Shown here: one piece after another, positions 9,384 to 23,043 of the stretch | Numbering within the stretch: position 1 is the stretch's first letter | Layout of the letters: every line of letters starts with the position of its first letter | From: a virus | Length of the DNA: 31,130 nucleotides | IMG/VR virus record: IMGVR_UViG_3300017757_000069 | Span: 1-31,130 of that record | Strand: one strand, 5' to 3' | Translations under genes and position numbers: made by a program | The notes under the pieces: generated by a model | Database searches by the model: none | What the model saw: only the letters and a program-made list of their open reading frames with translations | Told to the model about the DNA's origin: nothing

Positions 9384-9801
9384 CAGTACAATGTAAAGGT
9401 ACGCCAATCTCTTTTCTTAGTGCATAATATTCACCAATCATATTACCATACCTTTCCTTATAAAATATTAATGTAACACCTGCAGCTGTTAAAACTTTGT
9501 AACAGTGGATACAAGGTTCATGAGTTACATAAGCAGTAAGTTTATCATATCTTCTTTCCAAATTCAATACAGCTGCTACTTCAGCATGAATTGTTCTAAT
9601 ACAATGGTGGTCAACCACAATGCATCTATCATCCTCACAATGTGGCTGGCCAGGGTTACTACTGTTATAACCCGTAGCTTTAATTCGATTGTTCTTGTCG
9701 ACAATTACGCAACCAACTTTAGCACGGGGGCAAGTACCCCTGGCAGCAGCCAGTTCTGCTATTCCCATAAAATACTTTTCTCTTTTGAGTCTCTTAATCA
9801 T
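9376..9801 (-). CDS. Deoxycytidylate (dCMP) deaminase
   Basis: 141 residues. Seen: the zinc site HAE (H72, E74) and PCIHC (C97, C100), plus the family start FMGIAELAAARGTCPRAKVG and GYNSSNPGQPHCEDD, matching ComEB/T4-CD-type dCMP deaminases. Reaction: dCMP to dUMP with ammonia release, supplying dUMP and lowering dCMP. In this phage it competes with or balances the TS-family enzymes that look dCMP-specific. ATG 9801 is preceded by an in-frame GTG one codon earlier. The T4-type allosteric extras are not obvious at this length. Confidence 0.92.
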   Translation of the reverse strand: MIKRLKREKYFMGIAELAAARGTCPRAKVGCVIVDKNNRIKATGYNSSNPGQPHCEDDRCIVVDHHCIRTIHAEVAAVLNLERRYDKLTAYVTHEPCIHCYKVLTAAGVTLIFYKERYGNMIGEYYALRKEIGVPLHCTDD

Positions 9802-10129
9802 CACAAGTTTTACAAGCTGAAGCGTTCATTGCTTGAGTATCATCTTGCATACTACCCGCAAACCTTTTGTTTTCACTTGATTCATAGTCTATATCGGGAG
9901 AGGGTGTAGCAACTTTACCTGTTTCAACATCAACTCCTGCATCATCAACGGTTCGGGTATCTCTATCCAAAAATAATTCAGCACAACCATTTAAGGTTTT
10001 TAAAAGTTCCTCGCCCTCTTTCTTTTCTCGGGGGCTAATCATTGGATCACTTAATCCAACTTCAATCAATGTTTTTAATGTTGATACTTCTTTAATTGTA
10101 TCAAAGCGTAGAGCTATAACTTTTGCCAT
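9794..10129 (-). CDS. Hypothetical protein with disordered C-terminus
   Basis: 111 residues. The first ~65 look folded and helical (TIKEVSTLKTLIEVGLSDPM, EKKEGEELLKTLNGCAELFL). The rest is acidic, Ser/Thr-rich and low complexity, ending NASACKTCDD with a lone CxxC. ATG overlaps the primase end by 29 bases and its stop overlaps the deaminase start, so it is part of the coupled operon. No family recognised; a small replication accessory is possible. Confidence 0.7.
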   Translation of the reverse strand: MAKVIALRFDTIKEVSTLKTLIEVGLSDPMISPREKKEGEELLKTLNGCAELFLDRDTRTVDDAGVDVETGKVATPSPDIDYESSENKRFAGSMQDDTQAMNASACKTCDD

Positions 10130-11753
10130 TTCTTACCTTCAACTTCATTTTATTTATGTTTTTTACCATTTTCTCTACATCTTCCAGATATTTTACATCT
10201 TCAGTTTCTTTGTAGAGTTTCTTATTTTTAGTTACTTCTTTCTTCATAAAATCAAGATTCATCTTAATAATCAAATCTTTAGCGTATTGTTCTTTATCTT
10301 TAATTCTATCAAGTATTGTTAATCTAGTCGCAAATTGATCATTTCTTGCTAGATCTTGAGCTAATCCGTCTGGTTTATTATTGATTACTTCAAGTACGTT
10401 TGCTCCTAATCTTTTCTTTAAAAAGCCATTTATTGGAACATCTAAATCATCAACTGCATATAATAGCATTAGCTCATCTTCTAATTTTAATTGAGTATTA
10501 TCAATTTTTATATCTTCTGTAAAAGGGGCTTTCTTATATTGAGTAAGCCAATGTTCTAAATGCTTTTCATCATAGCCACTTAATTCACTTAATCTCCTTA
10601 AGTCTTGGCTTAGTTTTAACTTATTACGATGGCCGGATATTCTTTTTAATGTAGACTCTAAACCTTTTTGTTCATGGCAAAATTCAACAAAGCTATAGCC
10701 ATATTTATTATTTAACTTATCCCAATTAAATCGGTGTTTATATCTAGCTAGATCATCGGGGTCTTTACCCTCAACATGGATAATATGCGAATCAATATTC
10801 CTTTCAATTAAAAATTCCCCTACCCGTATAGTAGCGTCAATCCCCGCCTTATCACCATCACTCATAATGGTAGCCTTTTTAACATATTTCTTAAACATGT
10901 TTGCTTGGTCAGGTCCGAAATAACTACCCGAAACTGCAACAGCATTTTGGATACCACGTTGATGTAGTTGTAATACATCAAATTGCCCCTCAGTAATTAC
11001 AATCTCTCTTTGCCTTCTTATCTCTTGAACATTTTGAGCCCAACCATATAATAGCTTTGATTTTTTAAACCAGTCCGTATCTCTTGAATTTAGATATTTA
11101 GGAATTTTATCAGATACACCTAATGTACGACCTGTAAAACCAATAAGCTTTTTCTGGAAAAAGATAGGAAAGATAATTCTGTTTTTAAAGAAGTCCCTAT
11201 AATGACCAGCATCTGTTTTAATAATTAGATTAGCTTTCTCTAATAACTCATTGTCTAAATGCTGATTAGCAAGCCAAGTCCAATTATTTGGTGAATACCC
11301 TAACTGAAACAATTTTGCCGTCTCTTGCGTGATTCTACGGTCTCTTAAAGCCATTCTAGCATTCTCGCTAATTGAATCTTTTTGAAATAGAGTATTAGAA
11401 TAAAGACTTAAAGCAAATTCATTAATCTCAAATACATTACTAAACTCTTTAGCCCTTGCTTTTGGAGCCAAATGGGGTTTACCTATTTTTTCAGCTAATT
11501 GAGCTAAAGCTAATGGATAAGGAATGTCATCATATTTTGATATAAAACTAGCAGCATTACCTGTAGCCCCACACCCCGCACCAAAACATTTAAAAATACC
11601 TATCTTTGGTGATACCACCATTGAAGGGTCACTATCATGATGGAATGGGCATTTAGCTCTATAGTTTTCACCAATAGGTTGTAAGGGTAAATACTCTTTT
11701 ATAACCTCTTCTATTTGAATGTGGCTAAATAGTTCTGTACTTTCTCTGTGCAT
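10101..11753 (-). CDS. dnaG: DnaG-type DNA primase
   Basis: 550 residues from ATG 11753 (a TTG two codons earlier is possible). Seen: zinc-ribbon ligands CPFH (C35, H38) and CFGAGC (C56, C61), with the Dx(S/P)S-type HHDSDPSMVV. Then the DnaG core with the basic KYLNSRDT segment and the TOPRIM motifs TEGQFDVLQL (E255) and SDGDKAG (D299, D301). A helical C-terminal ~200 residues should bind DnaB. Role: RNA primers for lagging-strand synthesis. It pairs with the phage DnaB at 23043-24371. Length and motif order are normal for bacterial-type primase. Confidence 0.94.
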   Translation of the reverse strand: MHRESTELFSHIQIEEVIKEYLPLQPIGENYRAKCPFHHDSDPSMVVSPKIGIFKCFGAGCGATGNAASFISKYDDIPYPLALAQLAEKIGKPHLAPKARAKEFSNVFEINEFALSLYSNTLFQKDSISENARMALRDRRITQETAKLFQLGYSPNNWTWLANQHLDNELLEKANLIIKTDAGHYRDFFKNRIIFPIFFQKKLIGFTGRTLGVSDKIPKYLNSRDTDWFKKSKLLYGWAQNVQEIRRQREIVITEGQFDVLQLHQRGIQNAVAVSGSYFGPDQANMFKKYVKKATIMSDGDKAGIDATIRVGEFLIERNIDSHIIHVEGKDPDDLARYKHRFNWDKLNNKYGYSFVEFCHEQKGLESTLKRISGHRNKLKLSQDLRRLSELSGYDEKHLEHWLTQYKKAPFTEDIKIDNTQLKLEDELMLLYAVDDLDVPINGFLKKRLGANVLEVINNKPDGLAQDLARNDQFATRLTILDRIKDKEQYAKDLIIKMNLDFMKKEVTKNKKLYKETEDVKYLEDVEKMVKNINKMKLKVRNGKSYSSTL

Positions 11754-12717
11754 CTTCAATATTTCTTTTTAAGTAATGAGATATAGCCATAGTACAATGA
11801 GGCACAATAGACTTACCTACTTGATCTAATTGACCGGTTTCCCTACCATAAAACTTAAAGTGGTCAGGAAAACCCATAATTCTAGCATTCTCTCTTACGG
11901 TTAAAACTCTGCTTTCATAGGGGTGGACAAACCGTGAACAATGGGAAGCAACAGTACCAGCATGTTTTTCTGGATCTAGCCTCAAGTTATTTTGAGTTCC
12001 ATAGTATGACTCTCCTATCTTCAATTTAGCGAAACCTTGTATTCGCTTCAGGGAGTGATTTGGTCTTTTATGATTGGGTACTCCATCCCTAACTGTTAAT
12101 ACATCTTTTAATCTGTCCCCGCGATTATAACGATTGTGGAGGAGTATATAATCTGTTCTTAGTAATTCTTCAAAATCAAACTTGGGTTCAAATAATCTAC
12201 TGCCTATAATAAAAGCCCTTTTCCTACTCTGGGGTACACCAAACTCTTTTGCATTGAGTATAACTGTTTGGATCTTGTAATAAGGTAAGCTTAATACAGG
12301 GAGGCCAGCACCTTTAAACATTAATGAATTGTCTTCAAACCAAAAAGTTTTTAAGACATTGGGCACATTCTCTAGAATAAAGGTGCTTGGCTTTAATTCG
12401 TTTACTGCAATTAAAAATTTAACATAATCAAATTCCAAAGGGTCTAATTCATGTAATCTTCCTCTGTCTTTTCTTTTCATTCCAAGATTACTAAATTGCT
12501 TACAATCGGGGGAGCCCATTAATAAATTGATTGGTTTACCTTTCCACTCATTATACATATCTAAATAAGTATAACTAGAAGCATTAGGAAAATTATGTTT
12601 AAATGTTTCCTCATTATAAAAAGATCGGGGCTCAACGTTAAACCCAATATCATAGCCAGCCCATTTTGCCCCTAATAAAGAACCGCCAATACCGCCGAAT
12701 ACCCCTGAAGCAATCAT
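11725..12717 (-). CDS. DNA cytosine-C5 methyltransferase family protein with altered motif IV
   Basis: 330 residues from ATG 12717, whose ATGA overlaps the upstream TS-A stop; a GTG at 12726 is an alternative. Seen: motif I FGGIGGSLLGAKWAG, motif IV GSPDCKQFS (C72), motif VI LENVPN, motif VIII PQSRKRAFIIG and motif X GKSIVPHCTMAISHYL. The family normally has PPCQ at the catalytic cysteine; here it reads P-D-C-K. The target-recognition region is short. No restriction enzyme lies nearby, so it acts as an orphan enzyme, perhaps protecting phage DNA or starting a cytosine modification. Family confident; chemistry (plain methylation or another C5 transfer) open. Confidence 0.88.
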   Translation of the reverse strand: MIASGVFGGIGGSLLGAKWAGYDIGFNVEPRSFYNEETFKHNFPNASSYTYLDMYNEWKGKPINLLMGSPDCKQFSNLGMKRKDRGRLHELDPLEFDYVKFLIAVNELKPSTFILENVPNVLKTFWFEDNSLMFKGAGLPVLSLPYYKIQTVILNAKEFGVPQSRKRAFIIGSRLFEPKFDFEELLRTDYILLHNRYNRGDRLKDVLTVRDGVPNHKRPNHSLKRIQGFAKLKIGESYYGTQNNLRLDPEKHAGTVASHCSRFVHPYESRVLTVRENARIMGFPDHFKFYGRETGQLDQVGKSIVPHCTMAISHYLKRNIEDAQRKYRTI

Positions 12718-13499
12718 TTCTGCCACTTCTTAGGTGTATTGTGTTTCATTGCTTTTTCTTCAGGGCCGAGTAATCCATTTTTTAATGTAAATCTTTCAAA
12801 AGACCAAGCATGTAAAGAGCCAATCCACATATTGAGATTACCCATCTGTAGATCCATATCTAACTTGTCTTTAACCCATTGAGCTAATCTAATTGTCATA
12901 TAAATATCATTTTTAAAATGTCTACGTATATCACAACTACGAATATGGTAAGTACAATCAATCTTATCATTACGTATTAAGAAATGATAACCTAATGTAC
13001 AAGGTACCCTTTCACCAATATCAACTTGGTCTTCAGGATACCAGACCGACAAGTAAGCCTGGCGTGTTAAAGGGTCAGCTTTCATGCGGTCTATTAAATG
13101 ATTTAAATCTCCGTAGTTGTATCTAATACCTTTGAGATCTCGAGGGGGCCAATATCTTTCCATATAAGAATGGCTAAATTGTTTATCACCTTCACGAAAA
13201 CGTTCATTGTCTTTACCGTGGTCATAATAAGGCCAATTATAATATTGATTACCAGGGTTCAAAGGTTCACCCGATACACGTTCTTGAAAATGGTCTTCAG
13301 CCCAAGGCTGGTCGGCATTACATTGACTTTGTAATATAGTTTCATTAAATGGCATTTTCATTTGATAGTACCGTTGAGTAACCTCAATCATTGGGTGTTC
13401 AACTTCAACGGATTGCCACTTAAGTGGTTTAACCTCTTCACCATTTTTGTATAAATCTAATGCTGCTTTTTCTATAGCTTCATTTACTGTTAGTACCAT
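12714..13499 (-). CDS. Thymidylate-synthase-family enzyme A, dCMP-type (putative hydroxymethylase)
   Basis: 261 residues. Seen: catalytic RVPCTLGYHF (C167), RSCD (187-190) and D198, then GSLHAW (H230). Spacing from Cys to Arg (20) and Cys to D198 (31) equals E. coli thymidylate synthase C146-R166-N177. Known: the Asn at that position selects dUMP; Asp is found in T4 dCMP hydroxymethylase, and Asn-to-Asp change shifts TS toward dCMP. So a 5-substituted dCMP product is inferred. Tyr of the TS H-x-Y pair is Trp here. ATGA overlap couples it to the C5-methyltransferase. AAGGAAAG precedes the ATG. One of three TS paralogues in the window. Confidence 0.82.
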   Translation of the reverse strand: MVLTVNEAIEKAALDLYKNGEEVKPLKWQSVEVEHPMIEVTQRYYQMKMPFNETILQSQCNADQPWAEDHFQERVSGEPLNPGNQYYNWPYYDHGKDNERFREGDKQFSHSYMERYWPPRDLKGIRYNYGDLNHLIDRMKADPLTRQAYLSVWYPEDQVDIGERVPCTLGYHFLIRNDKIDCTYHIRSCDIRRHFKNDIYMTIRLAQWVKDKLDMDLQMGNLNMWIGSLHAWSFERFTLKNGLLGPEEKAMKHNTPKKWQK

Positions 13500-13534
13500 C
13501 TAATATTCGCTTTCCTTATAATAAGTTGATATTA

Positions 13535-13551
13535 TTAACAAAATATGTTAA
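13535..13551. promoter_or_regulatory. Inverted repeat, possible operator upstream of TS-A
   Basis: In the 78-base gap 13500-13577, a perfect 6+6 inverted repeat TTAACA-AAATA-TGTTAA lies 36 bases upstream of the TS-A start. It is one of the few real gaps in the leftward block, so it may mark a promoter/operator for the TS-A, methyltransferase and primase group. No strong -35/-10 pair could be fixed. Candidate binders are the RHH (18687-18953) or HTH (26968-27366) proteins; this is inference. Confidence 0.35.
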
Positions 13552-13577
13552 GTATGTTTTTCTTGTAACGGAGCCGC

Positions 13578-13970
13578 TTAACCGGAAAAAGCCTTTTTCT
13601 TACCACCATCATATATATAAGCATGACCTTCTTGGATCATTATCTGATTAAGGCTAAAGGGTCCGCCTTCGGCAGTACCTTCATAATTCTTAATAAATAC
13701 TTCACCCAACAGTCTACCGTATTTACCAAGTCCGTGGCTTTGAACTAAGAACTTACTCTCATTTGATTCCAATAATTCTTTATTACGGGCCTTTGCGTAT
13801 AAGCCCTTAGCTTTTTCAGCTTTATCCCTAGTTCTTGATTCCCAAGTATCAATGCCCATATACCTAATTCTCTTTTTTACCCATATATCAAACCCTACAT
13901 CAATTAAAGCATCAATGGTATCACCATCAACAACTCTAAGTAGTTTTGCTTCATAAAAATACTTATTCAT
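13578..13970 (-). CDS. Staphylococcal-nuclease-like thermonuclease
   Basis: 130 residues. Seen: VVDGDTIDALIDVGFDIW (D15, D17), KRIRYMGIDTWE (R34/R36, D41, E44) and KYGRLLGEVFI (R86), then HAYIYDGG, the SNase active-site order for Ca2+-dependent DNA/RNA hydrolysis. No signal peptide, so it acts inside the cell, perhaps in host DNA breakdown or nucleotide salvage feeding the dNTP enzymes around it. Strong AAAGGAG before the ATG, which overlaps the MazG-like stop by 8 bases. Family confident; physiological role inferred. Confidence 0.9.
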   Translation of the reverse strand: MNKYFYEAKLLRVVDGDTIDALIDVGFDIWVKKRIRYMGIDTWESRTRDKAEKAKGLYAKARNKELLESNESKFLVQSHGLGKYGRLLGEVFIKNYEGTAEGGPFSLNQIMIQEGHAYIYDGGKKKAFSG

Positions 13971-14322
13971 TTTCTTCTCCTTTTGCAGTTATATCATAAT
14001 TAACGTGATCATTTTCATCGCCTGGATCCTGTGGTGATACAAATCTCATTGCGTTTTGTTCATCGTTAGCAACCCCTAAAATAGCATAGCCTGCAATATC
14101 TCTCCAAGGGCTTTCACCGAAAGCACCTTTCTCATTAGCAATCCTAAATAATTTATCTATCACTCTTATAATGGTTAAAAAATCAGTATAGCTACGAGGG
14201 TCAACCCCGCTAGGGTAAAGTATTTCTAGTACTTTTCCTGCCTGACCAAAAGAGTCGCCATAAGCGGCATTCTTTTCTTTAACTAATTTACCTATTTCAT
14301 TTCCTATTTTTTGATAATCCAT
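13963..14322 (-). CDS. MazG-like/all-alpha NTP pyrophosphatase-like protein
   Basis: 119 residues from ATG 14322 (TAATG junction, AGGA upstream); an ATG at 14334 adds four residues. Seen: KLVKEKNAAYGDSF, RVIDKLFRIANEK and ESPWRDIAGYAILG. Known: KN.xYGDS plus R..DK..R and the ...WRDxAGYA.L helix is typical of small phage proteins annotated as MazG-like or DUF1599-like all-alpha pyrophosphatases with acidic Mg-binding helices. It may hydrolyse (d)NTPs to NMPs, which suits a phage that replaces a normal nucleotide by a modified one. Substrate unknown. Confidence 0.68.
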   Translation of the reverse strand: MDYQKIGNEIGKLVKEKNAAYGDSFGQAGKVLEILYPSGVDPRSYTDFLTIIRVIDKLFRIANEKGAFGESPWRDIAGYAILGVANDEQNAMRFVSPQDPGDENDHVNYDITAKGEENE

Positions 14323-15008
14323 TATTGATACCATCCTATATAGCTTATACGTTTATTGGTTACTTCTGGTGCTATGTGAGAAACAAAATGGGGAGCACCT
14401 GTATCATACCCCTCTACGTCCATAACTACATATTGATTAAACGTAGGCATTGTTACACTTAATATGTTATTCCAATTATTGATTTCTGTTCTAAAAAATA
14501 ATCCACCATCTTGAGGTCTCCAATCTTTGGTTAGGTGATATATAAAAGCAACCCGGCCTTGAATACCATCATGGTGAGGACCATTCCAATCACCCGATTC
14601 TAAACAATTAACAAAATTAACCCCTAATTTTAAATCTGTTTTACCCGTAGCTATTTCTAATTCTTTGATAAACTCATCAGATTGGAAATGAGTTACTAAT
14701 ATAGGGTGGAGGTAGTCAGTCCTACTATAATGATAACTAAAATTATGAAGATGAGTTTTTTGAGCATATAATTTCTTTTCTGCATAGTTTTTATCCTCTT
14801 TTTTTACAATAGCCAGTGGATATTCGGGGTTTTTATCAGGAGCTGGAAACTCATCGGGAAATAAATAGATATCCCAGTCATTATAGTCCATATAAAATTG
14901 ATGGAGCATATTTGCTTCTTTTGGGTCTAATAAATTTTTAATAATATCGTATCCCTGATGTTGAAACTTGGTTACTCTAGAGTTATGAGGAGTTATAAGA
15001 TTGTACAC
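14322..15008 (-). CDS. 2-oxoglutarate/Fe(II)-dependent oxygenase (P4H-like)
   Basis: 228 residues from GTG 15008, with GGGGAG just upstream. Seen: metal motif H145-x-D147 in GPHHDGIQG, a DGGLFF strand, distal H211 in HFVSHIAPEV and the 2OG-binding R220 in NKRISYIGW. This is the double-stranded beta-helix order of prolyl-4-hydroxylase-like oxygenases. Products could be hydroxylated protein, sugar or base. Neighbours are a glycosidase-like protein, MazG-like protein and TS-family enzymes, so oxidation of a modified nucleotide or DNA base is a reasonable hypothesis, not shown. The N-terminal ~120 residues match nothing I recognise. Confidence 0.82.
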   Translation of the reverse strand: MYNLITPHNSRVTKFQHQGYDIIKNLLDPKEANMLHQFYMDYNDWDIYLFPDEFPAPDKNPEYPLAIVKKEDKNYAEKKLYAQKTHLHNFSYHYSRTDYLHPILVTHFQSDEFIKELEIATGKTDLKLGVNFVNCLESGDWNGPHHDGIQGRVAFIYHLTKDWRPQDGGLFFRTEINNWNNILSVTMPTFNQYVVMDVEGYDTGAPHFVSHIAPEVTNKRISYIGWYQ

Positions 15009-15982
15009 TTACTCCCCTTAATTATATTGGTTAAATCTTTGTGCCACTGTATATCATTCCACATTCCTTTAAATTGAGGTCCGCAAAAATTACTAGTGCA
15101 TATTGCTTTCCATGCCCCTGTCCTGGCTGCCATATCAACTCCATGTGCACAAGCTTCTTTTACCCAACCCCAGTCTAAACCTTCATAATCTTTATAGTCA
15201 ATCGGTCCCCAGCCTTCACTAGTAATAATAGGTAGTTTAGTAGCAAAAGCTTTATCAGCTGCTTCAGCAATCATTCCATCCAAAGTACCAAGCCAATGGC
15301 TTTCTTCTTTTCTATAAAAATGTTCGGCCTTCTTTAGCTTTTCATATCCATCATTACCAAACTTATTAAAAGAATAATTGAGGTGTTCACTGTCATAAAA
15401 AGTAGAAAGAGCAGCAAACCAAATATTAAAACTAAGCATATCAACATTGCCTGCAGAGTAAGCCGTAAATTGTTGATTAACTGAATAGGTAACGGGTAAC
15501 CCGTGTGTATCAATACTTTCTAAGAGGATATTGATAGGAGTACTTGATTGGTCTTCAGTCCAAGGTGTCCAAATATTTAATGGATACTCATTTGATACAT
15601 CTACATATAGTATAGTATCGTGATAAGCTTTAACGTTATCTAGTACAGTTTGCCAAGCCTTTGCAGCCTGTTGAATTGTGCTAGGTCTAGATCCCCTCCA
15701 CCAAGTTGATAAACCTACCTTTATATCTCTGCCTGTACATTTAGCTAAGAAATCGTGGAGCTTAAAACTTTCCACTAATACGGGCTCGGGTGAACCCCAG
15801 TCATTAGCATCCCAAATAGGTTCAAGAGTTTCAGCTTTAGGGAATAGGCCAGGGTAAGCTTCAATCCTAAGAGCATCATAACCCCTTTCTTGAAGTTCAT
15901 CTAATGCTTTATCCCAATCATCGTATTCTGATCTTTCTAACCAAGAAAAATCCCACATTGCTATTGCATAAGTCTTGTTCAA
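14993..15982 (-). CDS. Cellulase-like clan GH-A glycoside hydrolase
   Basis: 329 residues from TTG 15982, chosen because AAGGAG lies 8 bases upstream and TTGA overlaps the previous stop; a GTG at 15991 is possible. Seen: TIM-barrel-like segments, acid/base YVDVSNEYPL (E132), and nucleophile-type ITSEGWGP (E256), both at beta-strand ends as in GH5-like enzymes. No signal peptide and no tail-fibre features, so it should act in the cytoplasm. A cytosolic glycosidase inside a replication/nucleotide operon is unusual. It might trim or transfer sugars on a nucleotide or DNA. Family by motif only. Confidence 0.7.
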   Translation of the reverse strand: MNKTYAIAMWDFSWLERSEYDDWDKALDELQERGYDALRIEAYPGLFPKAETLEPIWDANDWGSPEPVLVESFKLHDFLAKCTGRDIKVGLSTWWRGSRPSTIQQAAKAWQTVLDNVKAYHDTILYVDVSNEYPLNIWTPWTEDQSSTPINILLESIDTHGLPVTYSVNQQFTAYSAGNVDMLSFNIWFAALSTFYDSEHLNYSFNKFGNDGYEKLKKAEHFYRKEESHWLGTLDGMIAEAADKAFATKLPIITSEGWGPIDYKDYEGLDWGWVKEACAHGVDMAARTGAWKAICTSNFCGPQFKGMWNDIQWHKDLTNIIKGSKCTIL

Positions 15983-16128
15983 GATACCCACTCCTTAAAG
16001 TAAGCTATAATTTTATGTCTCCATATACCTAAGCCCGCAAGTATACCTGCACTTGATAGCATCAAGGTTTGAACCTTGGGTAAGTAGCAACAAAAAAAGT
16101 GATGAAAAAAATGTGTAAGCCATTCCAT
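15979..16128 (-). CDS. Small membrane protein (49 aa)
   Basis: Begins MEWLTHFFHHFFCCYLPKV and continues into LMLSSAGILAGLGIW, a likely transmembrane helix, ending in a basic HKIIAYFKEWVS. The stop overlaps the TTG of the glycosidase-like gene (TTGA) and the gene contains that gene's AAGGAG. The ATG starts 3 bases before the preceding gene's stop region ends, leaving no gap between neighbours. His/Phe/Cys-rich N-terminus could bind metal, but that is speculative. No family recognised. Confidence 0.55.
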   Translation of the reverse strand: MEWLTHFFHHFFCCYLPKVQTLMLSSAGILAGLGIWRHKIIAYFKEWVS

Positions 16129-16130
16129 AA

Positions 16131-16895
16131 TTAGTCTCCTATTAACATGTCTATATCAACCCCGTCCTCTTCCATGAGGGCATAGGTCCTTTTAAGTACC
16201 CTTTTAATCCATTGCATTTTAACCGTTTCATAGACTGCAGGGTCACCAAATTTATCTTTAAATCTAACTAGCATCTCCTTGAATGAGGGATTCCAACTAG
16301 TAATACCATACTTCCTCATCATCATTGCAGCGGTTGGGGCTTGGTGCATATTGATAAAAGATGAGGTTAAAAAGCAAGAAAACAAAGTACATCTTACTTT
16401 ATACGGAGTAAACCCCGCTAACATTTCATATAAGAATTCAAAATCCATATAAGTCTTTGGCCATATTTCTGTATTCCTAAATACAATCAAAGCTTCATAT
16501 TCAGTCATTGTAGACTTTTGTATATATAAACTATCTAAACATTTTAGTCTATCAGTACGATTAAAAGCTGGCTCCGAAAAAGAAATTAATCCTCTGGCTT
16601 GTCTTGGCTGAAGTTGTCTAATGCTAGAAACGAGGAGGTCATATTGTTTCTTCACTTTAGGTCCAAAGTAACTTTCTCGAAGCCGCTTTATTTTTATATC
16701 TTTATTATAACCCGAATATTTATAAAAGTCCTTCTCTAAAATGGTATCATCAAAATGGATACCTTCCGTAAATCCATACACCCGTCTGGAGTACATAGTT
16801 GGATAATAATAAGAATGTTGATTACCGGTAGCAGTATGTACTAAAAGGTTGAACCAGAGTTCAGACATATTCTTGCCTGTAACTTGGACAAACAT
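16131..16895 (-). CDS. Divergent thymidylate-synthase-family protein C
   Basis: 254 residues. Seen: QPRQARGLISFSE corresponds to the SRR-I-V-S strand of TS, RLKCLDSLYI carries the catalytic-type Cys (C119, with Lys instead of Pro before it), and FRNTEIWPKTYMD corresponds to RSxD plus the specificity position. E replaces the D of RSxD and D151 replaces the dUMP-selecting Asn. SSFINMHQ (H184) matches the H-x-Y region. Overall TS order is kept but key bases of the signature are shifted by one residue. It sits directly after dUTPase with its ATG abutting the dUTPase stop. Function could be an unusual C5 pyrimidine transferase; not canonical TS. Confidence 0.65.
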   Translation of the reverse strand: MFVQVTGKNMSELWFNLLVHTATGNQHSYYYPTMYSRRVYGFTEGIHFDDTILEKDFYKYSGYNKDIKIKRLRESYFGPKVKKQYDLLVSSIRQLQPRQARGLISFSEPAFNRTDRLKCLDSLYIQKSTMTEYEALIVFRNTEIWPKTYMDFEFLYEMLAGFTPYKVRCTLFSCFLTSSFINMHQAPTAAMMMRKYGITSWNPSFKEMLVRFKDKFGDPAVYETVKMQWIKRVLKRTYALMEEDGVDIDMLIGD

Positions 16896-17327
16896 CTATT
16901 TTTGTTTCAATCCACTACTGCCAAACCCACCATCACCTCGTTGACTCTTTTCAAGTTCATCAACTTCAGCAGCTTGACCTGTCCAAATTTTCATCAAAAT
17001 TAATTGAGCAATCTTTTCACCCGCAGGTATTACAACATCCTCGTCTGAATGGTTAAATAAGTGGACATGTATTTCCCCTCTATAACCTGAATCAATTACT
17101 TCAGCCCCTTTATCTAGTTTAAGCTTTGTAGCTCTACCGGATTTATTGCAAACCATTAAAGCGTAACCGATAGGAAATTCACAAGCCAATCCAAGTCCAG
17201 TCATAGCATCCCCTCGGGCTGGTATAACAACTTCATCAACTGTAAATACATCCATACCCGCATCGCCTTCATTAGCCCGCTGTGGTATTATTGCATGATC
17301 GTATAATTTCTTAAATTTTAATAACAT
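16896..17327 (-). CDS. dut: dUTP diphosphatase (trimeric dUTPase)
   Basis: 143 residues, normal length. All five motifs are present: DAGMDVF, NKSGRATK (usually P-R-S-G-L-A), VIDSGYRGEIHV, GEKIAQLIL and the C-terminal RGDGGFGSSG P-loop-like arm. Converts dUTP to dUMP plus pyrophosphate, keeping uracil out of DNA and feeding dUMP to pyrimidine enzymes. The neighbours upstream (dNMP kinase) and downstream (TS-C) make a nucleotide cassette. The stronger need for uracil exclusion also fits the glycosylase domain on the phage polymerase. Confidence 0.95.
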   Translation of the reverse strand: MLLKFKKLYDHAIIPQRANEGDAGMDVFTVDEVVIPARGDAMTGLGLACEFPIGYALMVCNKSGRATKLKLDKGAEVIDSGYRGEIHVHLFNHSDEDVVIPAGEKIAQLILMKIWTGQAAEVDELEKSQRGDGGFGSSGLKQK

Positions 17328-17560
17328 TAGTTAGGCCCACTTAAAAAGTTTTTCATTCCATTTACTACTCTATCTAGAAACCCGATCTCTTCCATCTTTC
17401 CGCGCCGTTGGGTACGCCCTTCAACCACGCCTGCTTTGAAACCTTGTTTCCAGCCCGTTTTCTTTCCAGCACGGTAAGCTTTATTATAAACAAGTTTGTA
17501 ACCTTGTTCACTTTTGACATCCTTTTTAAGGACCTGCTTTGACTTCGCTGTTCTTGCCAT
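17327..17560 (-). CDS. Small very basic protein, possible DNA binder
   Basis: 77 residues from ATG 17560, which has AAAGGAG 6 bases upstream; the longer frame to 17605 would overlap the kinase and lacks a site. Begins MARTAKSKQVLKKDVKSEQG, then AYRAGKKTGWKQGFKAG and RTQRRGKMEE, with a hydrophobic amphipathic C-terminus (IGFLDRVVNGMKNFLSG). High Lys/Arg content suggests nucleic-acid binding. No recognised family. Its stop abuts the dUTPase start. Confidence 0.7.
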   Translation of the reverse strand: MARTAKSKQVLKKDVKSEQGYKLVYNKAYRAGKKTGWKQGFKAGVVEGRTQRRGKMEEIGFLDRVVNGMKNFLSGPN

Positions 17561-17588
17561 TTTGTTCTCCTTTGGTATTATGTGTTTT

Positions 17589-18122
17589 TTAAATGGTACT
17601 GGCATATTTTTCTATAATTCCATTAACATTTGAATCACTTGAACGGATTCTTAAACTATTCAAAGTACAATGTTCAGTTTTATATTCCAAATAGCCTTTC
17701 ATGATTTTGGGTACCATTTCTTGTTTTAAGAAGTCTTCACCTCTAATTTCCATTCTCTTGAGTATATCAGCTTCCTCAGCAAATATTTCTAAATATAGAT
17801 GTGGTTCATGTTTAACCCTTGCTTCCAATTCTTTATAGAAAGGATCTTTATAAGGGTTATACCCGCGTAATATTGAACCATAGACTAATTCTGATTGATA
17901 AAACCTATCCATTATCAATGTACCGCCAACAGGCTGTATAGCTTGATAATAAGTTTTTAACATTGTCTTATAGCTTGCCTGTAATTTTGCAAGCTCATCT
18001 TCATTAGAATTAAGTGGTCTATTACCATGTTTTATGTAATAGCAGTTTGGTATTTTTTTGAGTAGCCTTTCAGCCATCCAACCTTTACCACCACAATCAA
18101 CTCCTTCGATTATAATAATCAT
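17589..18122 (-). CDS. Thymidylate-kinase-like deoxynucleoside monophosphate kinase
   Basis: 177 residues. Seen: P-loop EGVDCGGKGWMAERLL (K13), in which the usual GK(S/T) is GKG; LIMDRFYQSELVYG with the DRx catalytic motif; and a lid-like RMEIRGEDFLKQE. This is the TMK/dNMP-kinase layout, converting (d)NMP to (d)NDP. In this cluster it could phosphorylate a modified pyrimidine monophosphate made by the TS-family proteins, as T4 gp1 does for hydroxymethyl-dCMP. That substrate is inferred. GGAGGA precedes the ATG in the end of the small membrane gene. Confidence 0.8.
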   Translation of the reverse strand: MIIIIEGVDCGGKGWMAERLLKKIPNCYYIKHGNRPLNSNEDELAKLQASYKTMLKTYYQAIQPVGGTLIMDRFYQSELVYGSILRGYNPYKDPFYKELEARVKHEPHLYLEIFAEEADILKRMEIRGEDFLKQEMVPKIMKGYLEYKTEHCTLNSLRIRSSDSNVNGIIEKYASTI

Positions 18123-18221
18123 TTATCCTCCTGACACCAGCCATAAAGCTACAGCATGAAATATTATAATTGCTATAGCAATTAGAAACCCAAAGATCAA
18201 ATCTGTTCTATCTTCTTTCAT
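18123..18221 (-). CDS. Tiny single-pass membrane protein (32 aa)
   Basis: Reads MKEDRTDLIFGFLIAIAIII followed by a hydrophobic end and SGG. Its ATGA overlaps the previous stop and its final codons supply the GGAGGA for the kinase gene, leaving no space on either side. One transmembrane helix, short charged N-terminus. Coding is supported by the exact junctions; function unknown. It resembles in size and design the protein at 4976-5074. Confidence 0.58.
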   Translation of the reverse strand: MKEDRTDLIFGFLIAIAIIIFHAVALWLVSGG

Positions 18222-18676
18222 TTGATATACTTATAGACTCCATCTGCAGCCATTTCTAATTGTTCATTTCTGGTTAATTCCCTAATAACTCTTGAAACCC
18301 TTGTCTTACAAGTAGCCCCTCTTGCTGAATAACCTCTTTCACTATTAGTAATATCAATAAGATCTTTCTTAGTATGTTTATTTTCCATAATAAGATCTAT
18401 GATAAATTGTTTATTACTTCTTTTAAAGCCCGACTTAGTAACCTTATTGGTTTTCTTGCCTGATTCTACTGCAGCTTCTTGTTTACGGTTTTCAATCTCT
18501 TGTAAAGCTAATTGATATGCATCATAGACTTCATCAACCATTTCTTCTCTTGACAAGCCCGGATCTATATCAATATTCAATTCACTTTTGATAACATCAA
18601 CTATTTCAGTTGAGGTTAGATTTGGTGAATCAATGATATTATTTATATCATCTTTAGTTAGCATTTCCATTCCCAT
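18218..18676 (-). CDS. Probable DNA-binding protein with C-terminal winged-helix-like domain
   Basis: 152 residues from ATG 18676 with GGGAGG 6 bases upstream. N-terminal helices (DDINNIIDSPNLTSTEIVDVI), a charged linker (QEAAVESGKKTNKVTKSG), and a C-terminal ~65-residue unit: NKQFIIDLIMENKHTKKDL, TCKTRVSRVIRELTRN and GVYKYIK. That strand-ended helix set resembles a winged helix as used in modular restriction/transcription factors. It could regulate or tether other proteins to DNA. No named family recognised. Confidence 0.68.
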   Translation of the reverse strand: MGMEMLTKDDINNIIDSPNLTSTEIVDVIKSELNIDIDPGLSREEMVDEVYDAYQLALQEIENRKQEAAVESGKKTNKVTKSGFKRSNKQFIIDLIMENKHTKKDLIDITNSERGYSARGATCKTRVSRVIRELTRNEQLEMAADGVYKYIK

Positions 18677-18686
18677 GTTGACCTCC

Positions 18687-18953
18687 CTACATGTTTTTAA
18701 TGAATTTATCTACAAACTCTGTTGTAGTTGGTTTTTCTTTTTGAGCAAGTTTATATGCCTGCTCTTCAAAAAGTTTTTTATCTTCTCTTGAAAGTTTATT
18801 GATATGATCTGATACAGCCTGGATTACAAAATTTGAAAAGCTAGAATCTGGATATTTAGCTTTAGCATATTGTTCACATATCTTTATAAAATTTCTTTGA
18901 AACTTTGGTACATAAATCGAAAGTTGTTTATATAAATTATCTTTTTTTGCCAT
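18687..18953 (-). CDS. Ribbon-helix-helix-like DNA-binding protein
   Basis: 88 residues. QLSIYVPKFQRNFIKICEQY gives a beta strand and first helix, and SSFSNFVIQAVSDHINKL the second helix, the Arc/CopG-type layout; the rest is a charged helix. Likely a dimeric regulator binding an inverted repeat. The ATG lies inside the end of the small basic frame at 18937-19047. Regulated site unknown; the repeat at 13535-13551 is one candidate. Confidence 0.65.
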   Translation of the reverse strand: MAKKDNLYKQLSIYVPKFQRNFIKICEQYAKAKYPDSSFSNFVIQAVSDHINKLSREDKKLFEEQAYKLAQKEKPTTTEFVDKFIKNM

Positions 18954-19047
18954 TGTTGTTTTTACTCTTTTTTCGTTTTCTAGAACTTTTAGCTTTCTTT
19001 TTAGCGGCTAACTTATATCCGCCCCATTTAGTTTTGTTTCTTCCCAA
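18937..19047 (-). CDS. Possible small basic protein with TTG start
   Basis: 36 codons from TTG 19047, stopping inside the RHH gene. Reads MGRNKTKWGGYKLAAKKKAK followed by an Arg/Lys/Ser-rich tail. It fills the only gap between 18953 and 19028. The compositional bias is protein-like and nucleic-acid-binding in style, but there is no good ribosome binding site and part of it overlaps the end of the upstream gene. It could instead be a +1-frame extension of that gene. Low confidence. Confidence 0.35.
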   Translation of the reverse strand: MGRNKTKWGGYKLAAKKKAKSSRKRKKSKNNNGKKR

Positions 19048-19558
19048 TTTTGCCCATAGCCTTTCGCCTGTATTGATAACTGTAAGCCATATCTGGTATA
19101 GGTAAAACCCATAAGATTGGCTGACCTTTTGTTATCTCTGTTGCCTTTCCATTAGTATCTTTTTTAGAATATAAGTAGAGCTTATCAAATCTATTTGGTT
19201 CCGCATTGTCAATAACGTAATCTTCAATATGTGGATCTAGCCCCATAATTAAAAAGCATGTACGAGGAGGTAATTGAAGTTCCAGTCCTAAATCAATCGC
19301 ATATCCATTCTCGTATTCAAAAGATTCTTGTTCTTTAGGGGCTGGGCCTCCTGAGCCTGAAAAGGGTCTAGACTTACCATCTAGTATAATACTGTAGGGT
19401 AAAGAAATTTTAAATCCAAAGGATTGAGCTTTATCAAAAGTAAGACTTGAGTTTTGAGCATTTGCTGAAGGTATAACAAATTCTGCACCCCAGTCTTTCT
19501 GTTTATATTCAATATCTAATTCATAAGCGCCTGTCTGTATATTTCTTCTTACTGCCAT
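19028..19558 (-). CDS. Beta-rich hypothetical protein
   Basis: 176 residues, ATG with GGAGGA 6 bases upstream. Alternating strand-like segments (FGFKISLPYSIIL, GYAIDLGLELQLPPRTCFLI, KGQPILWVLPIPD) resemble all-beta folds. The 'LPPRTCFLIMG ... ITKGQPILWVLPI' order is loosely like dUTPase/dCTP-deaminase relatives, but the catalytic motifs are absent, so no enzymatic role is claimed. The middle has a Gly/Ser/Pro-rich loop. Last residues are basic (YRRKAMGKIGKKQN). Part of the coupled operon. Confidence 0.68.
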   Translation of the reverse strand: MAVRRNIQTGAYELDIEYKQKDWGAEFVIPSANAQNSSLTFDKAQSFGFKISLPYSIILDGKSRPFSGSGGPAPKEQESFEYENGYAIDLGLELQLPPRTCFLIMGLDPHIEDYVIDNAEPNRFDKLYLYSKKDTNGKATEITKGQPILWVLPIPDMAYSYQYRRKAMGKIGKKQN

Positions 19559-20046
19559 TCAAAATCCTCCTGTGTTAACTCATAAGCCCAATGTTGTAGG
19601 CTTTGTCGAATAACGGGGCTGATTGAGTAATCATCATATTGTCCCGCCTTTTTCTTTATTGAACTAATAAGTCTTCTTCTCCATCTACCATTAGGGCCTG
19701 CAAAGTTTAACCATCTTTGTATTTGACGGCTATCATCAATAGTTCTTCTACCAGCACAATAATGACAATACCATTGTACCCAACCATAAGGATCGATGTT
19801 TTCTTTAATCCAGCCTTTTTCCCTCCAGTTTTCCAAAGATGATCCCGCCCTTACTTTATACTTATTGACGTTTTTATCATCAACGGTTGAAGTTAATAAG
19901 TTACTATTAATATGGGTCCACCATTCATTTGGTAATTCTAAGTGTTCATCAACATAGCCGTCAATAGGACGCCAGTATGACCCGCCAAAACTACCATAGG
20001 AAAATATTTGTTGAGGAGTAAGGTTAGGTTTGAAATTAGAAGACAT
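19549..20046 (-). CDS. Conserved Trp/Arg-rich protein of unknown function
   Basis: 165 residues. Seen: NLTPQQIFSYGSFGGSYWRP, VRAGSSLENWREKGWI, DPYGWVQWYCHYCAGRR and SRQIQRWLNFAG. From memory, the FGVxASxxLxxWxxKGWI / DPxGWFQWYCRYYxGRR pattern recurs in uncharacterised proteins of bacteria, fungi and large viruses, so this is probably a genuine family. The dense W/R/Y conserved segments suggest nucleic-acid or nucleobase contact. Not a recognised enzyme. AAGGAA precedes the ATG. Confidence 0.7.
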   Translation of the reverse strand: MSSNFKPNLTPQQIFSYGSFGGSYWRPIDGYVDEHLELPNEWWTHINSNLLTSTVDDKNVNKYKVRAGSSLENWREKGWIKENIDPYGWVQWYCHYCAGRRTIDDSRQIQRWLNFAGPNGRWRRRLISSIKKKAGQYDDYSISPVIRQSLQHWAYELTQEDFEWQ

Positions 20047-21454
20047 CTATCATTTCCTTTATCTCAAATTCACTTTCTTTTCTATAAGTCTTTAGTCTTG
20101 CTTTAGAATGTCTTTGTAGCATTCCACCATCTGCATCCATAAAATCAATAATAACTGCTTCTGATTTACCCTCCGATTTACGTAAAGCCCTACCTACTCT
20201 TTGTACTGTTTGTTTATTAGACTTACCTCCGCCTGCCATAATAATTACATCCATTGACGGAATGTTAACTCCTTCATTAACAACTGTACTAATTAAAATC
20301 TTTATCTTCTTATTGCCAAAGTCTTCAAGTATTTGTTTTCTTTCTTCAGCCGGTGTTTGACCTGACATAAATACCGCATCTTCAATCAGATCATTTAATA
20401 AGCCTCCATGTTCAGCAACCCGAGTAACCGTAATCAATACTGACTTATTATCCTTTGCAAAGTTTTCAGCTAATTGAACTATCTTAGCATTGCGTCTTGC
20501 ATTCTTTAAAATATTCTCCTTATAAGCTACTTGCCAATCAGAATATCTTTGTGGTGGGGTTACCTTATACATTTGAATTGAAGGTCTAGTTAATAATCCT
20601 CGCTTGATTAATTCACTACTAGTAACGTGGTCAATTATCCGCCCCGTAGCCCCTTCAAGTAATTCCCTTTCTAATGAACCTGAGTCACCTGGAGTAGCAG
20701 TTAATCCAAATTTGTAATAGCAATCTAACATTGTAGCTATTTTAAAATAGGTATTTTGAATCTTATTCTTTCCTGCTACGTTAATGTGGTGAGCCTCATC
20801 AATACAAAGTACATCAATCTTTTTAAATAAATCTGATAGTTGTGGATCATTCCTTTTAATCTTTGACCATAAGGATTGAACAGTAGCAACAGTAAATAGT
20901 TTGGGGTCAAATACCCCCTCTCCAATCTCTCCTACATATTCCTCCCCTAGAAAACCCCTCATGTCATCAGCAGTTTGTAATAATAGATTAAGTGTGGGTA
21001 CAATAATTAATGAGGGTAAACCTAAGTCTCTTAGTATTGCAGCTGTTACAACCGTTTTACCCGCTCCTGTTGCATGATGTATTATCCCGCGTGAAGATTG
21101 TAAAGACTTGGTTACAGCCCTATCTTGATAGTCCCGTAAGGGTGGAATTGTAGTTGTGGACAACAAAGACATGAGTTGTGGTGTGTCCTTGGGCTTGGTC
21201 CTAATGTCTTTAAAAGATACTTTAATCCCCATATCTTTTAATTTACTTAGGAACTTACCGGTCCACCCTGACGGGAATTTATTATATTTGTAATATGGTA
21301 AAGCAGTAGTCATTTTAGTCCTACGAGGAGGGCGTTGACTAAAGTCTAATCCATAATACTCAAACTCTTTATTGCACCATTTATGGAGCATTTCAGCTTG
21401 TTCAGTTGATTCATTAGTAACTAGTGTATAACTGTTGCCTAAACTAAATTGCAT
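20036..21454 (-). CDS. uvsW: SF2 DNA helicase, UvsW-like
   Basis: 472 residues. Seen: Q-like YQDRAVTKSL, Walker A ATGAGKT (128-134), DEAH (219-222), LTATPG, motif V-type STVVNEGVNIPS and motif VI QRVGRALR. An N-terminal ~95-residue extension precedes the helicase core, as in T4 UvsW, which handles branched DNA, R-loops and replication-to-recombination switching. The ATG overlaps the sigma-factor stop (AAATATGCAATTTAG). UvsW-type role is inferred from the uvsX/gp32/Mre11 context. Confidence 0.88.
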   Translation of the reverse strand: MQFSLGNSYTLVTNESTEQAEMLHKWCNKEFEYYGLDFSQRPPRRTKMTTALPYYKYNKFPSGWTGKFLSKLKDMGIKVSFKDIRTKPKDTPQLMSLLSTTTIPPLRDYQDRAVTKSLQSSRGIIHHATGAGKTVVTAAILRDLGLPSLIIVPTLNLLLQTADDMRGFLGEEYVGEIGEGVFDPKLFTVATVQSLWSKIKRNDPQLSDLFKKIDVLCIDEAHHINVAGKNKIQNTYFKIATMLDCYYKFGLTATPGDSGSLERELLEGATGRIIDHVTSSELIKRGLLTRPSIQMYKVTPPQRYSDWQVAYKENILKNARRNAKIVQLAENFAKDNKSVLITVTRVAEHGGLLNDLIEDAVFMSGQTPAEERKQILEDFGNKKIKILISTVVNEGVNIPSMDVIIMAGGGKSNKQTVQRVGRALRKSEGKSEAVIIDFMDADGGMLQRHSKARLKTYRKESEFEIKEMIDVF

Positions 21455-22064
21455 ATTTATCCGTTGCTATAGTAACACAAGTGCGAATAGTATCAAAGTA
21501 AGTACTAATGCACGGTCTACTAATTCCAAACATTTTTGATATGGTACTACGAGTAGCTTTAGGAAAAGCCATTTTAAAATAAAAGACTTTTGCTAATTGC
21601 CTATTACGGCTTACCTTATCTTCAACATCCGCAAATATTTGCCAATATAATTCCTCCCTAAATTCAGGGGAATAATTTTCAGATTCCTTCATTTGGTTAT
21701 AAATCAGTTGTTCAACGGGGCTTGAATTTTCAGATTCTTGATATGCAGTATCAAGACTTATCTTATGCCCTAGTCTACTTTCCCTAACCATTTTTCTAAC
21801 CTCTTTTACAAGCATTTGGTGCATTCTCATTCTTATCCATGTCAATATTGTAGAACCATGATCGGGCTTATAAGAATTGATAGCTTGATAAAGCCCAATT
21901 CTAGTAACCTGTTCAAAATCTTCCTCATCCCTTGCACCGGATGGATCAAAGTATTTGTACGGATTTACCATCATAACTGTTGAAGCCCAGAGTTCCTCAA
22001 AGACGAAAGAAGAATTTGTTTTTTTAAATTCATCAACTAATGTAATAGCTTCTTCATTTGTCAT
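21444..22064 (-). CDS. Sigma-70-family RNA polymerase sigma factor (phage-encoded)
   Basis: 206 residues. Seen: a region-2-like block DEEDFEQVTRIGLYQAINSY followed by STILTWIRMRMHQMLVKEVR, then a linker with KISLDTAYQESE and a C-terminal HTH (ATRSTISKMFGISRPCISTY) like region 4. It lacks region 1 and most of region 3, a compact form like other phage middle/late sigma factors. It probably redirects host RNA polymerase to phage promoters. GGAGG lies 4-5 bases before the ATG. It is preceded by an 88-base gap that may hold its own promoter. Confidence 0.8.
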   Translation of the reverse strand: MTNEEAITLVDEFKKTNSSFVFEELWASTVMMVNPYKYFDPSGARDEEDFEQVTRIGLYQAINSYKPDHGSTILTWIRMRMHQMLVKEVRKMVRESRLGHKISLDTAYQESENSSPVEQLIYNQMKESENYSPEFREELYWQIFADVEDKVSRNRQLAKVFYFKMAFPKATRSTISKMFGISRPCISTYFDTIRTCVTIATDKYAI

Positions 22065-22104
22065 TTAACCTCCATTGTTGTAATTGTGTATAATATAGTA
22101 TTCA

Positions 22105-22134
22105 AATATACAAATAAAATTCACGTAAATACAA
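22105..22134 (-). promoter_or_regulatory. Candidate promoter in the gap before the sigma-factor gene
   Basis: The gap 22065-22152 is AT-rich. On the - strand TTGTAT (22134-22129) and TATATT (22110-22105) are 18 bases apart, a weak sigma-70-like pair about 40 bases before the sigma-factor start. A second AT-rich TATTAT follows at 22095-22090. AT-rich sequence gives such matches by chance, so confidence is low. Confidence 0.28.
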
Positions 22135-22152
22135 CAAATATTTTGATCTAGC

Positions 22153-23043
22153 TTACTTTAATAAGTTAAACTCTTGATTTTGAGTAGGCATATTCATAAT
22201 AAACTTCATCATTTCTTGGACTAATGGAGATTCTATATCATCCAAGTTAGGTAAAGCTTCATTATACATGGCGTATTGTTTTTCCATCGACCCATGAAGA
22301 TCCCGACCTTGAGAGGTTTTAGTAATTTCATATTGCATCTCGTTAACATTTTCCAATTCATTTACAAATTTTTCCAAATAATTACGTTCAGGTAATTCTC
22401 TTCTTTTAGGGTAATACATGTGAGTGGCAAAATGATTATAGCTTCCTACCTCAAGCCCCAATACACTCGCAATGTAGCGCTGTAGAAAAGTATGATGCCA
22501 AACATCATAAGGTAAAAGGTTGATTATATCATTAGTCCTCATATTTACATATAAATGTAATTTGTCATCCCGCCTAATAAAATGTAAAGTCAAAGTGCAA
22601 GGACGTCTATTATAATCTGGTACCTTTAGTAAGTAATGATCGTGCCACATATTGATAATGGCTTCCCGCGTTGTTTTTTCTTTCTTTAGCAATTTAATAG
22701 TAGCAGGTACCTGTTTTGCATAGCATTCACCATAAGCATAATGGAATTCTCCATTCTCTTTAGCAAGTTTTCTTTTCCATGCTGGCCTGTATTGATAAGC
22801 CAAACCTGGATTTTGATATTCATGTGCCATTCCAAATACTCCTGACATCCTATCAAATAATTCTTGAAAGCACCATTTCCAATTTTTCTTATAATATAAA
22901 AGGCTTTGAGTAGGATCAGTCAATATTAATTGAACGCCCATAAGGTCTCTAGTCTTTGCAACCAGTTCCCCTTTATCTCTTACCGTTTTGACTAAGTCTA
23001 AGTATATTCTATTAAAGTTGCTACTTTCTATAGTTGTAATCAT
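22153..23043 (-). CDS. Thymidylate-synthase-family enzyme B, dCMP-type
   Basis: 296 residues. Seen: N-terminal TS-like VAKTRDLMGVQLILTDP, YGECY in the substrate channel, catalytic RRPCTLTLHF (C149), RTND (169-172), D180 and HFATHMY (H208, Y210). Cys-to-D180 spacing is 31, identical to E. coli TS Cys146-Asn177. RSxD reads RTND. Asp at the base-selecting position predicts dCMP rather than dUMP binding. It is the least diverged of the three paralogues at H-x-Y. ATG overlaps the DnaB stop (TAATG). A hydroxymethylase or other C5-transfer activity is inferred. Confidence 0.82.
   Translation of the reverse strand: MITTIESSNFNRIYLDLVKTVRDKGELVAKTRDLMGVQLILTDPTQSLLYYKKNWKWCFQELFDRMSGVFGMAHEYQNPGLAYQYRPAWKRKLAKENGEFHYAYGECYAKQVPATIKLLKKEKTTREAIINMWHDHYLLKVPDYNRRPCTLTLHFIRRDDKLHLYVNMRTNDIINLLPYDVWHHTFLQRYIASVLGLEVGSYNHFATHMYYPKRRELPERNYLEKFVNELENVNEMQYEITKTSQGRDLHGSMEKQYAMYNEALPNLDDIESPLVQEMMKFIMNMPTQNQEFNLLK

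Follow-up and report, generated by a model that had tools for sequence, protein, structure and literature searches.

The window analyzed here, the entire IMG/VR record IMGVR_UViG_3300017757_000069 (31,130 bases, a marine phage fragment), encodes three proteins of the thymidylate synthase (TS) superfamily, TS-A, TS-B, and TS-C, the last of which is, by its predicted fold, a deeply divergent TS-fold protein that forms with its relatives a family of its own, unnamed until now and nearly always accompanying TS-A-type proteins. We slightly favor the reading that TS-A and TS-C constitute a two-gene module modifying deoxycytidine monophosphate (dCMP), with TS-B as a separate, more T4-like dCMP hydroxymethylase of a marine clade. 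A TS-fold family missed by standard libraries is hereby named and tied to dCMP-type TS in more than 100 isolated phages. An earlier note on this DNA had placed three TS-family paralogues in the window; the bounds of the three open reading frames (ORFs) were reproduced exactly and their superfamily membership was upheld, but TS-C is no ordinary paralogue. The note gave no strand; all three are encoded on the minus strand, and a plus-strand reading is ruled out by stops that close that strand.

12714..13499, minus strand: TS-A, dCMP-type TS-superfamily protein (261 amino acids; C167, T168, R187-S188-C189-D190, D198; His at the Glu58 column)
16131..16895, minus strand: TS-C, divergent TS-fold partner protein (254 amino acids; Y76, C119, R140-N-T-E143, K147, D151)
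22153..23043, minus strand: TS-B, T4-gp42-like dCMP-type enzyme (296 amino acids; C149, T150, D180)

Cytosine-Type Residues in the Active Sites

Both TS-A and TS-B score above the curated cut-off of 24.3 bits for PF00303 (E=1.6e-8, 34.5 bits, and E=7.5e-11, 42.1 bits, respectively) and match PHROG_160 (E=7e-27 for TS-A). The best PDB sequence matches of TS-B are the dCMP hydroxylase AfhB (9iqu/9iqc, E=1.8e-10) and the cytidine monophosphate (CMP) hydroxymethylase MilA. TS-A forms its own clade in the phylogeny (support 100/100), the deeper placement of which is unsafe because of long branches.

Active-site columns are numbered after E. coli ThyA, in an alignment that also includes T4 gp42 and SPO1 gp29. 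Asp occupies the Asn177 column in all three proteins, as the earlier note had proposed: D198 of TS-A and D180 of TS-B fall there by alignment together with the Asp of T4 gp42, whereas ThyA and the SPO1 deoxyuridine monophosphate (dUMP) hydroxymethylase have Asn, and D151 of TS-C is assigned to the column via profile comparison, fold, and family invariance. The spacing of 31 between Cys and Asp claimed for TS-A (C167-D198) and TS-B (C149-D180) is likewise correct, that of TS-C (C119-D151) being 32, and the catalytic Cys and downstream Arg are present as reported (C146/R166 in TS-A and TS-B by column; C119/R140 in TS-C by its own numbering). The remaining aligned columns read R126, Q127, T147, S167, C168, D169, H207, and W209 in TS-A, and E58, W80, Y94, R126, E127, T147, T167, N168, D169, H207, and Y209 in TS-B. 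Asp177 is retained in every clade member of each gene, and all 51 TS-A neighbors of TS-C-like genes in the wider collection described below carry C146, R126, Q127, R166, D169, D177, and H207; this conservation, in genes under purifying selection, indicates that Asp177 is not a product of chance.

The link between this residue and dCMP that the earlier note had stated is on record: N177D in TS switches the enzyme to dCMP, and in the MetaGPA study positions 177 and 147 separate TS proteins of cytosine-modified viral contigs from those of unmodified ones (PMC8670742), while the corresponding Asp of T4 dCMP hydroxymethylase protonates cytosine N3 (PMC6400193). The 147/177 pair is Thr/Asp in T4 gp42, His/Asn in ThyA, and Asn/Asn in SPO1; TS-B has Thr/Asp, and the 147 column is Thr or Ser in all TS-A proteins checked. 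Residue logic therefore supports a putative preference of TS-A, TS-B, and TS-C for cytosine over uracil. The Asn177 plus His147 combination of a canonical dUMP TS is found in neither TS-A nor TS-B. Consistent with the earlier note, there is no canonical TS or ThyX in the window, nor in a 69-kb relative (G012), although these records are fragments; G012 encodes no PF00303 protein beyond those already known, and a search of the window and eight further records gave no ThyX.

TS-C Represents a Divergent TS-Fold Family

TS-C had no match in sequence searches against Pfam, PHROGs, NCBIfam, and PDB, and none to PF00303 at E<=1, nor did a tblastn search of INPHARED match any phage. A HMMER search of PDB with the family profile likewise found no TS, so that the fold is not visible from sequence alone, and since the curated cut-off is not reached we file TS-C as a divergent TS-fold protein and not as a member of PF00303. 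In phages with TS-A relatives, an ORF labeled as hypothetical or, in two records, as "pyrimidine hmase synthase" lies between the dUTPase gene and TS-A. Such TS-C-like proteins from proteobacterial phages have a Cys followed by R-x-T-E-x3-K-x3-D, the same as TS-C, and those from actinophages retain the Cys, Arg, and Asp. Profile comparison joins the TS-C clade of the window to the TS-C-like set (E=9.3e-6) and the proteobacterial-phage and actinophage subsets to each other (2.5e-7), and it aligns the joined set with TS (P=8e-4) such that Cys, Arg, and Asp fall in matching columns. Shuffled profiles (40-60 trials per comparison) never scored as high, including 0/60 for the first and last of these. 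The TS-C hidden Markov model also ranks the TS-C-like ORFs first among all ORFs of their loci (E=1.5e-5). PHROG_13667 and PHROG_34294, which have no assigned function, are TS-C-like proteins.

Structure prediction and profile search, among the checks that the earlier note had proposed, returned a TS-superfamily fold for TS-C with its Asp column aligned to Asn177. The AlphaFold2 model built with 43 relatives has a pLDDT of 77.5 and a pTM of 0.79; one built with 11 close sequences was poor (52.5 and 0.40) and was not relied on. All 13 PDB matches of the former at E<=1e-3 are T4 dCMP hydroxymethylase, MilA, or AfhB, and a BFVD search returned phage TS and dCMP hydroxymethylases together with the TS-C-like protein of phage PMBT14. 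The query-normalized TM-scores to PDB entries are moderate (0.38-0.52), and we therefore make no claim about detailed geometry. Family profile, shuffles, and fold together rule out a chance likeness of TS-C to TS.

Only Y76, C119, R140, and D151 are invariant among 60 TS-C family sequences. C119, R140, and D151 occupy the TS catalytic columns Cys146, Arg166, and Asn/Asp177, and Y76 is matched to Tyr94 by order and spacing, so that the catalytic core of the superfamily is present in what is a predicted fold. Absent are the residues binding the 3'-OH (His207/Tyr209) and the partner arginines. This loss of most substrate-binding residues, along with the pairing with TS-A, would suit a TS-C without catalytic activity that serves TS-A as a regulatory or structural subunit, but a dead protein would have no need of four exceptionless residues matching catalytic ones, the Cys included, in such divergent sequences, and we regard this explanation as quite improbable.

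TS-C-Like Genes Are Paired with TS-A across Phages

TS-A matches were present in 51 of 53 TS-C-like loci from IMG/VR, nearly always just downstream; this sampling started from TS-C-like genes and does not count partnerless TS-A. In INPHARED, TS-C-like genes occur in about 103 records (18 by the P744 query plus 85 by the PotPie query) and TS-A in 113, the weakest of which (E>1e-17) resemble other TS proteins. The pairing holds in Gordonia (68/68), Serratia (6/6), Pseudomonas (5/5), Streptomyces (4/4), and Brevundimonas (2/2) phages, and Mycobacterium phage Muddy is among the carriers. The TS-C-like gene usually stands directly before TS-A, with a 4-nucleotide overlap in 29/50 pairs and within 30 nucleotides in 38/50, which suggests translational coupling. 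The gene order in carriers is kinase - dUTPase/dCTPase - TS-C-like - TS-A - dCMP deaminase - PolA; at the pyrophosphohydrolase position, the GTE2 member is annotated as dCTP pyrophosphatase (PF08761 by profile).

The earlier note had envisaged three dCMP-directed enzymes, perhaps working successively. As stated, this independence is not supported, because TS-C is nearly always paired with TS-A-type proteins. It is nevertheless conceivable that the three act separately, TS-C using the TS-A product or another cytosine substrate (a nucleoside, DNA-borne cytosine, or a sugar-modified nucleotide) and so yielding successive modifications. TS-C keeps the full minimal catalytic set (equivalents of Tyr94, Cys146, Arg166, and Asp177 in 60 sequences), and loss of the 3'-OH contact and partner arginines is to be expected if a different substrate is bound. 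The near-strict pairing and gene overlap fit joint action better, and we consider separate enzymes somewhat unlikely, though a two-step pathway is compatible with these data. The pairing supports a joint function and does not distinguish a complex from consecutive steps.

The TS-C-like partner is mostly annotated as "hypothetical protein"; the label "pyrimidine hmase synthase" in Yersinia phage P744 and Caudoviricetes sp. ctfzr933 hints at a TS domain. We found no description of the pairing, its residues, or its function in the open literature, and the pairing is the new point of this analysis, the pair having been read as thymine synthesis with a hypothetical second gene. In Gordonia phage Azira, for example, dCMP deaminase, TS, dUTPase, and thymidylate kinase were interpreted in this way (PMC10353413). 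Under that annotation TS-A would convert dUMP, supplied by the neighboring dCMP deaminase and dUTPase, to thymidine monophosphate (dTMP), with TS-C as a helper. Every TS-A checked, however, has Asp177 with Thr/Ser147 in place of the Asn177/His147 of ThyA, and no TS-type C-terminal tail could be aligned in TS-A. Nor does dTMP synthesis require the pair, since three of its carriers have a dTMP synthase apart from it, ctfzr933 and ctuI7215 possessing ThyX and Huwbert the canonical TS gp68. A thymidylate role is accordingly highly improbable. Microbacterium phage Huwbert (L061 3900-5542) is another phage with three TS proteins, comprising TS-C-like gp65, TS-A gp67, and the canonical dUMP-type gp68, which has both Asn177 and His147.

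A Marine Clade Carrying All Three Genes

Twelve IMG/VR contigs and one contig of a Pacearchaeota metagenome-assembled genome (MAG) encode TS-C at 73-97% identity. All six mapped records that span the region (G003, L006, L009, L011, G012, and L031) carry TS-A, TS-B, and TS-C, as well as the dUTPase and deoxynucleoside monophosphate (dNMP) kinase, and the C5-methyltransferase and dCMP deaminase are retained wherever a spanning record reaches that far. Of the three proteins TS-C is conserved best, with 77% identity to G012 compared with 60% and 55% for the other two. Against the nearest relative, the ratios of nonsynonymous to synonymous polymorphism (pN/pS) of the three genes are 0.12-0.22, indicating purifying selection, and that of TS-C (0.115) is the lowest among seven genes tested (PolA 0.156, DnaB 0.133). 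The contig assigned to the Candidatus Pacearchaeota MAG, L031, comes from a phage of this clade, has all three genes, and was probably misbinned. The neighboring genes of the window are as follows.

9376..9804, minus strand: dCMP deaminase, clade-conserved (PF00383 E=7.7e-23)
11725..12726, minus strand: C5-cytosine DNA methyltransferase, directly after TS-A with a 13-nucleotide overlap (PF00145 E=9.6e-36)
13578..13970, minus strand: Staphylococcal-nuclease-like protein, between TS-C and TS-A (PF00565 E=4.2e-10)
13963..14334, minus strand: small protein (PHROG_1485 E=5.2e-8), MazG-like by a weak reading made by eye; in the closest relatives, synteny places it between TS-C and TS-A
16896..17327, minus strand: dUTPase, directly before TS-C (PF00692 E=1.5e-29)
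17589..18122, minus strand: dNMP-kinase-like protein of the thymidylate-kinase family (PHROG_761 E=7.4e-18; PF02223 E=1.4e-4, below cut-off), a candidate kinase for the modified nucleotide

Proposed Role of the Module

In the proposed module, TS-A and TS-C would take dCMP before DNA synthesis, either as one complex or one after the other. The catalytic Cys (146) would attack C6, with Asp177 reading the cytosine N3/N4 edge and Tyr94 aiding removal of the C5 proton. The neighboring dNMP kinase would then phosphorylate the modified nucleotide and the neighboring dUTPase/dCTPase-type pyrophosphohydrolase trim the normal nucleotide pool, leaving the DNA polymerase to incorporate the modified nucleotide. 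By analogy, the kinase-to-PolA operon order may mirror the T4 logic of dCTP removal, dCMP modification, and phosphorylation of the product. TS dimers lend Arg126 to the partner's active site, and a physical contact between TS-A and TS-C is suggested by the 4-nucleotide gene overlaps and by the fact that only TS-A keeps Arg126. We infer dCMP to be the substrate and a hydroxymethyl group the likeliest product; folate would be the one-carbon donor for TS-A and TS-B because both keep Asp169, the pterin-binding residue (PMC6400193). A cytosine role is supported by Asp177 with Thr/Ser147 in TS-A and TS-B, as in T4 gp42, and by the published association of these positions with cytosine modification. 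For TS-B, a role in making hydroxymethylcytosine fits the position of its relative in Lactobacillus phage ATCCB, which adjoins a beta-glucosyltransferase.

Several observations weigh against this proposal. The Glu58 column of TS-A is His in 72/74 sequences (ungapped local alignment) and its 209 column is Phe/Trp instead of Tyr, differing at both from T4 gp42, MilA, SPO1, and TS; the chemistry of TS-A is thus not readable from Asp177 alone, and ordinary hydroxymethylation is not assured. Lacking the catalytic Glu58, TS-A is not filed as a dCMP hydroxymethylase of the T4 gp42 type, but as a protein with a putative, related action on cytosine, whereas TS-B has Glu in all clade members. Direct sequence similarity between the TS-C family and TS is weak (P about 1e-3), and other genes stand between TS-C and TS-A, with no overlap, both in the window and in the records closest to it. 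A C5-cytosine DNA methyltransferase requires cytosine with a free C5, and the gene beside TS-A, retained in all clade members covering it, argues against full replacement of cytosine. Our survey of the open literature found no biochemistry or nucleoside analysis of any pair carrier.

Among characterized enzymes, T4 gp42 shares Asp177, Thr147, Arg126, Arg166, Asp169, and His207 with both TS-A and TS-B; TS-A resembles it further in having no TS C-terminal tail. T4 gp42 modifies mononucleotides and works together with a dNMP kinase of the phage, as proposed for the enzymes here. TS-A differs from it in His at Glu58, Gln127, Phe/Trp209, and the second TS-fold protein alongside, and TS-C shares with it the minimal catalytic residues only. 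SPO1 gp29 is also a TS-superfamily enzyme of phage DNA modification, and has Gln127 like TS-A, but its Asn at 177 and 147 is of the uracil type. MilA, the CMP 5-hydroxymethylase of mildiomycin synthesis, has Asp at 177 and is matched by TS-C in fold and TS-B in sequence; its ribose determinants Ala176/Lys133, however, are absent, TS-A having Ser/Arg and TS-B Thr/Arg. MilA's preference for ribose goes with Lys at the 126 column and Ala at the 167 column (PMC5175136), and these residues rule out MilA-type CMP specificity here. Methylation of dCMP of the Xp12 type was also rejected, no Pamexvirus being among the TS-A relatives listed.

AfhB of phage HY126, whose substrate is dCMP, is the best PDB sequence match of TS-B and one of the top fold matches of TS-C. 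TS-B, and possibly TS-A, might accordingly be flavin-dependent dCMP 5-hydroxylases yielding 5-hydroxycytosine and not 5-hydroxymethylcytosine: 9iqu and 9iqc are titled dCMP hydroxylase/monooxygenase with dCMP and flavin adenine dinucleotide (FAD), and 5-hydroxy-dCMP synthases are members of the TS superfamily (PMC13390438). However, AfhB, deposited with FAD, has Asn at 169 in the alignment (RSQN), where TS-A and TS-B keep Asp, and no arabinosyltransferase was recognized next to TS-B; we judge this alternative unlikely.

A bolder version of the TS-A/TS-C module, which we put forward tentatively and hold to be doubtful, is a heteromeric TS-superfamily enzyme producing an undescribed C5-cytosine modification in many phages, including the therapeutic phage Muddy. 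The near-canonical TS-A subunit would contribute the folate site and the arginine that binds phosphate, and the stripped-down TS-C subunit a second Cys/Tyr/Asp active site. We know of no heteromeric TS-superfamily enzyme. Many carriers can be grown in the laboratory on Gordonia and Mycobacterium smegmatis, and if their DNA holds modified cytosine, this would matter for resistance to restriction and CRISPR, for genome engineering, and for phage therapy candidates such as Muddy.

Other Genes of the Window and Its Relatives

A cellulase-like glycoside hydrolase (14993-15991, PF12876 E=4.1e-75) lies between TS-C and TS-A, adjoins a 2-oxoglutarate (2OG)-Fe(II) oxygenase, and among mapped relatives is kept in L011 only. 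The window has two 2OG-oxygenases, the first absent from mapped relatives; both match 2OG-FeII_Oxy_3/4 and not Tet_JBP, and a TET/JBP route of C5-methylation followed by oxidation was rejected. A glycosyltransferase family 25 gene (8577-9407, PF01755 E=1.1e-16) adjoins the dCMP deaminase and was not seen in mapped relatives; its substrate could be cell-surface sugars or a modified base. Two genes of G012 were not seen in the window: a cytidylyltransferase directly upstream of TS-B (L034 17590-18309, record G012 57587-58309; PF02348 E=4.5e-43), CMP-KDO-synthetase-like by eye, and, elsewhere, a DAHP/KDO-8-P-synthase-like gene (L033 16230-17018; PF00793 E=1e-61).

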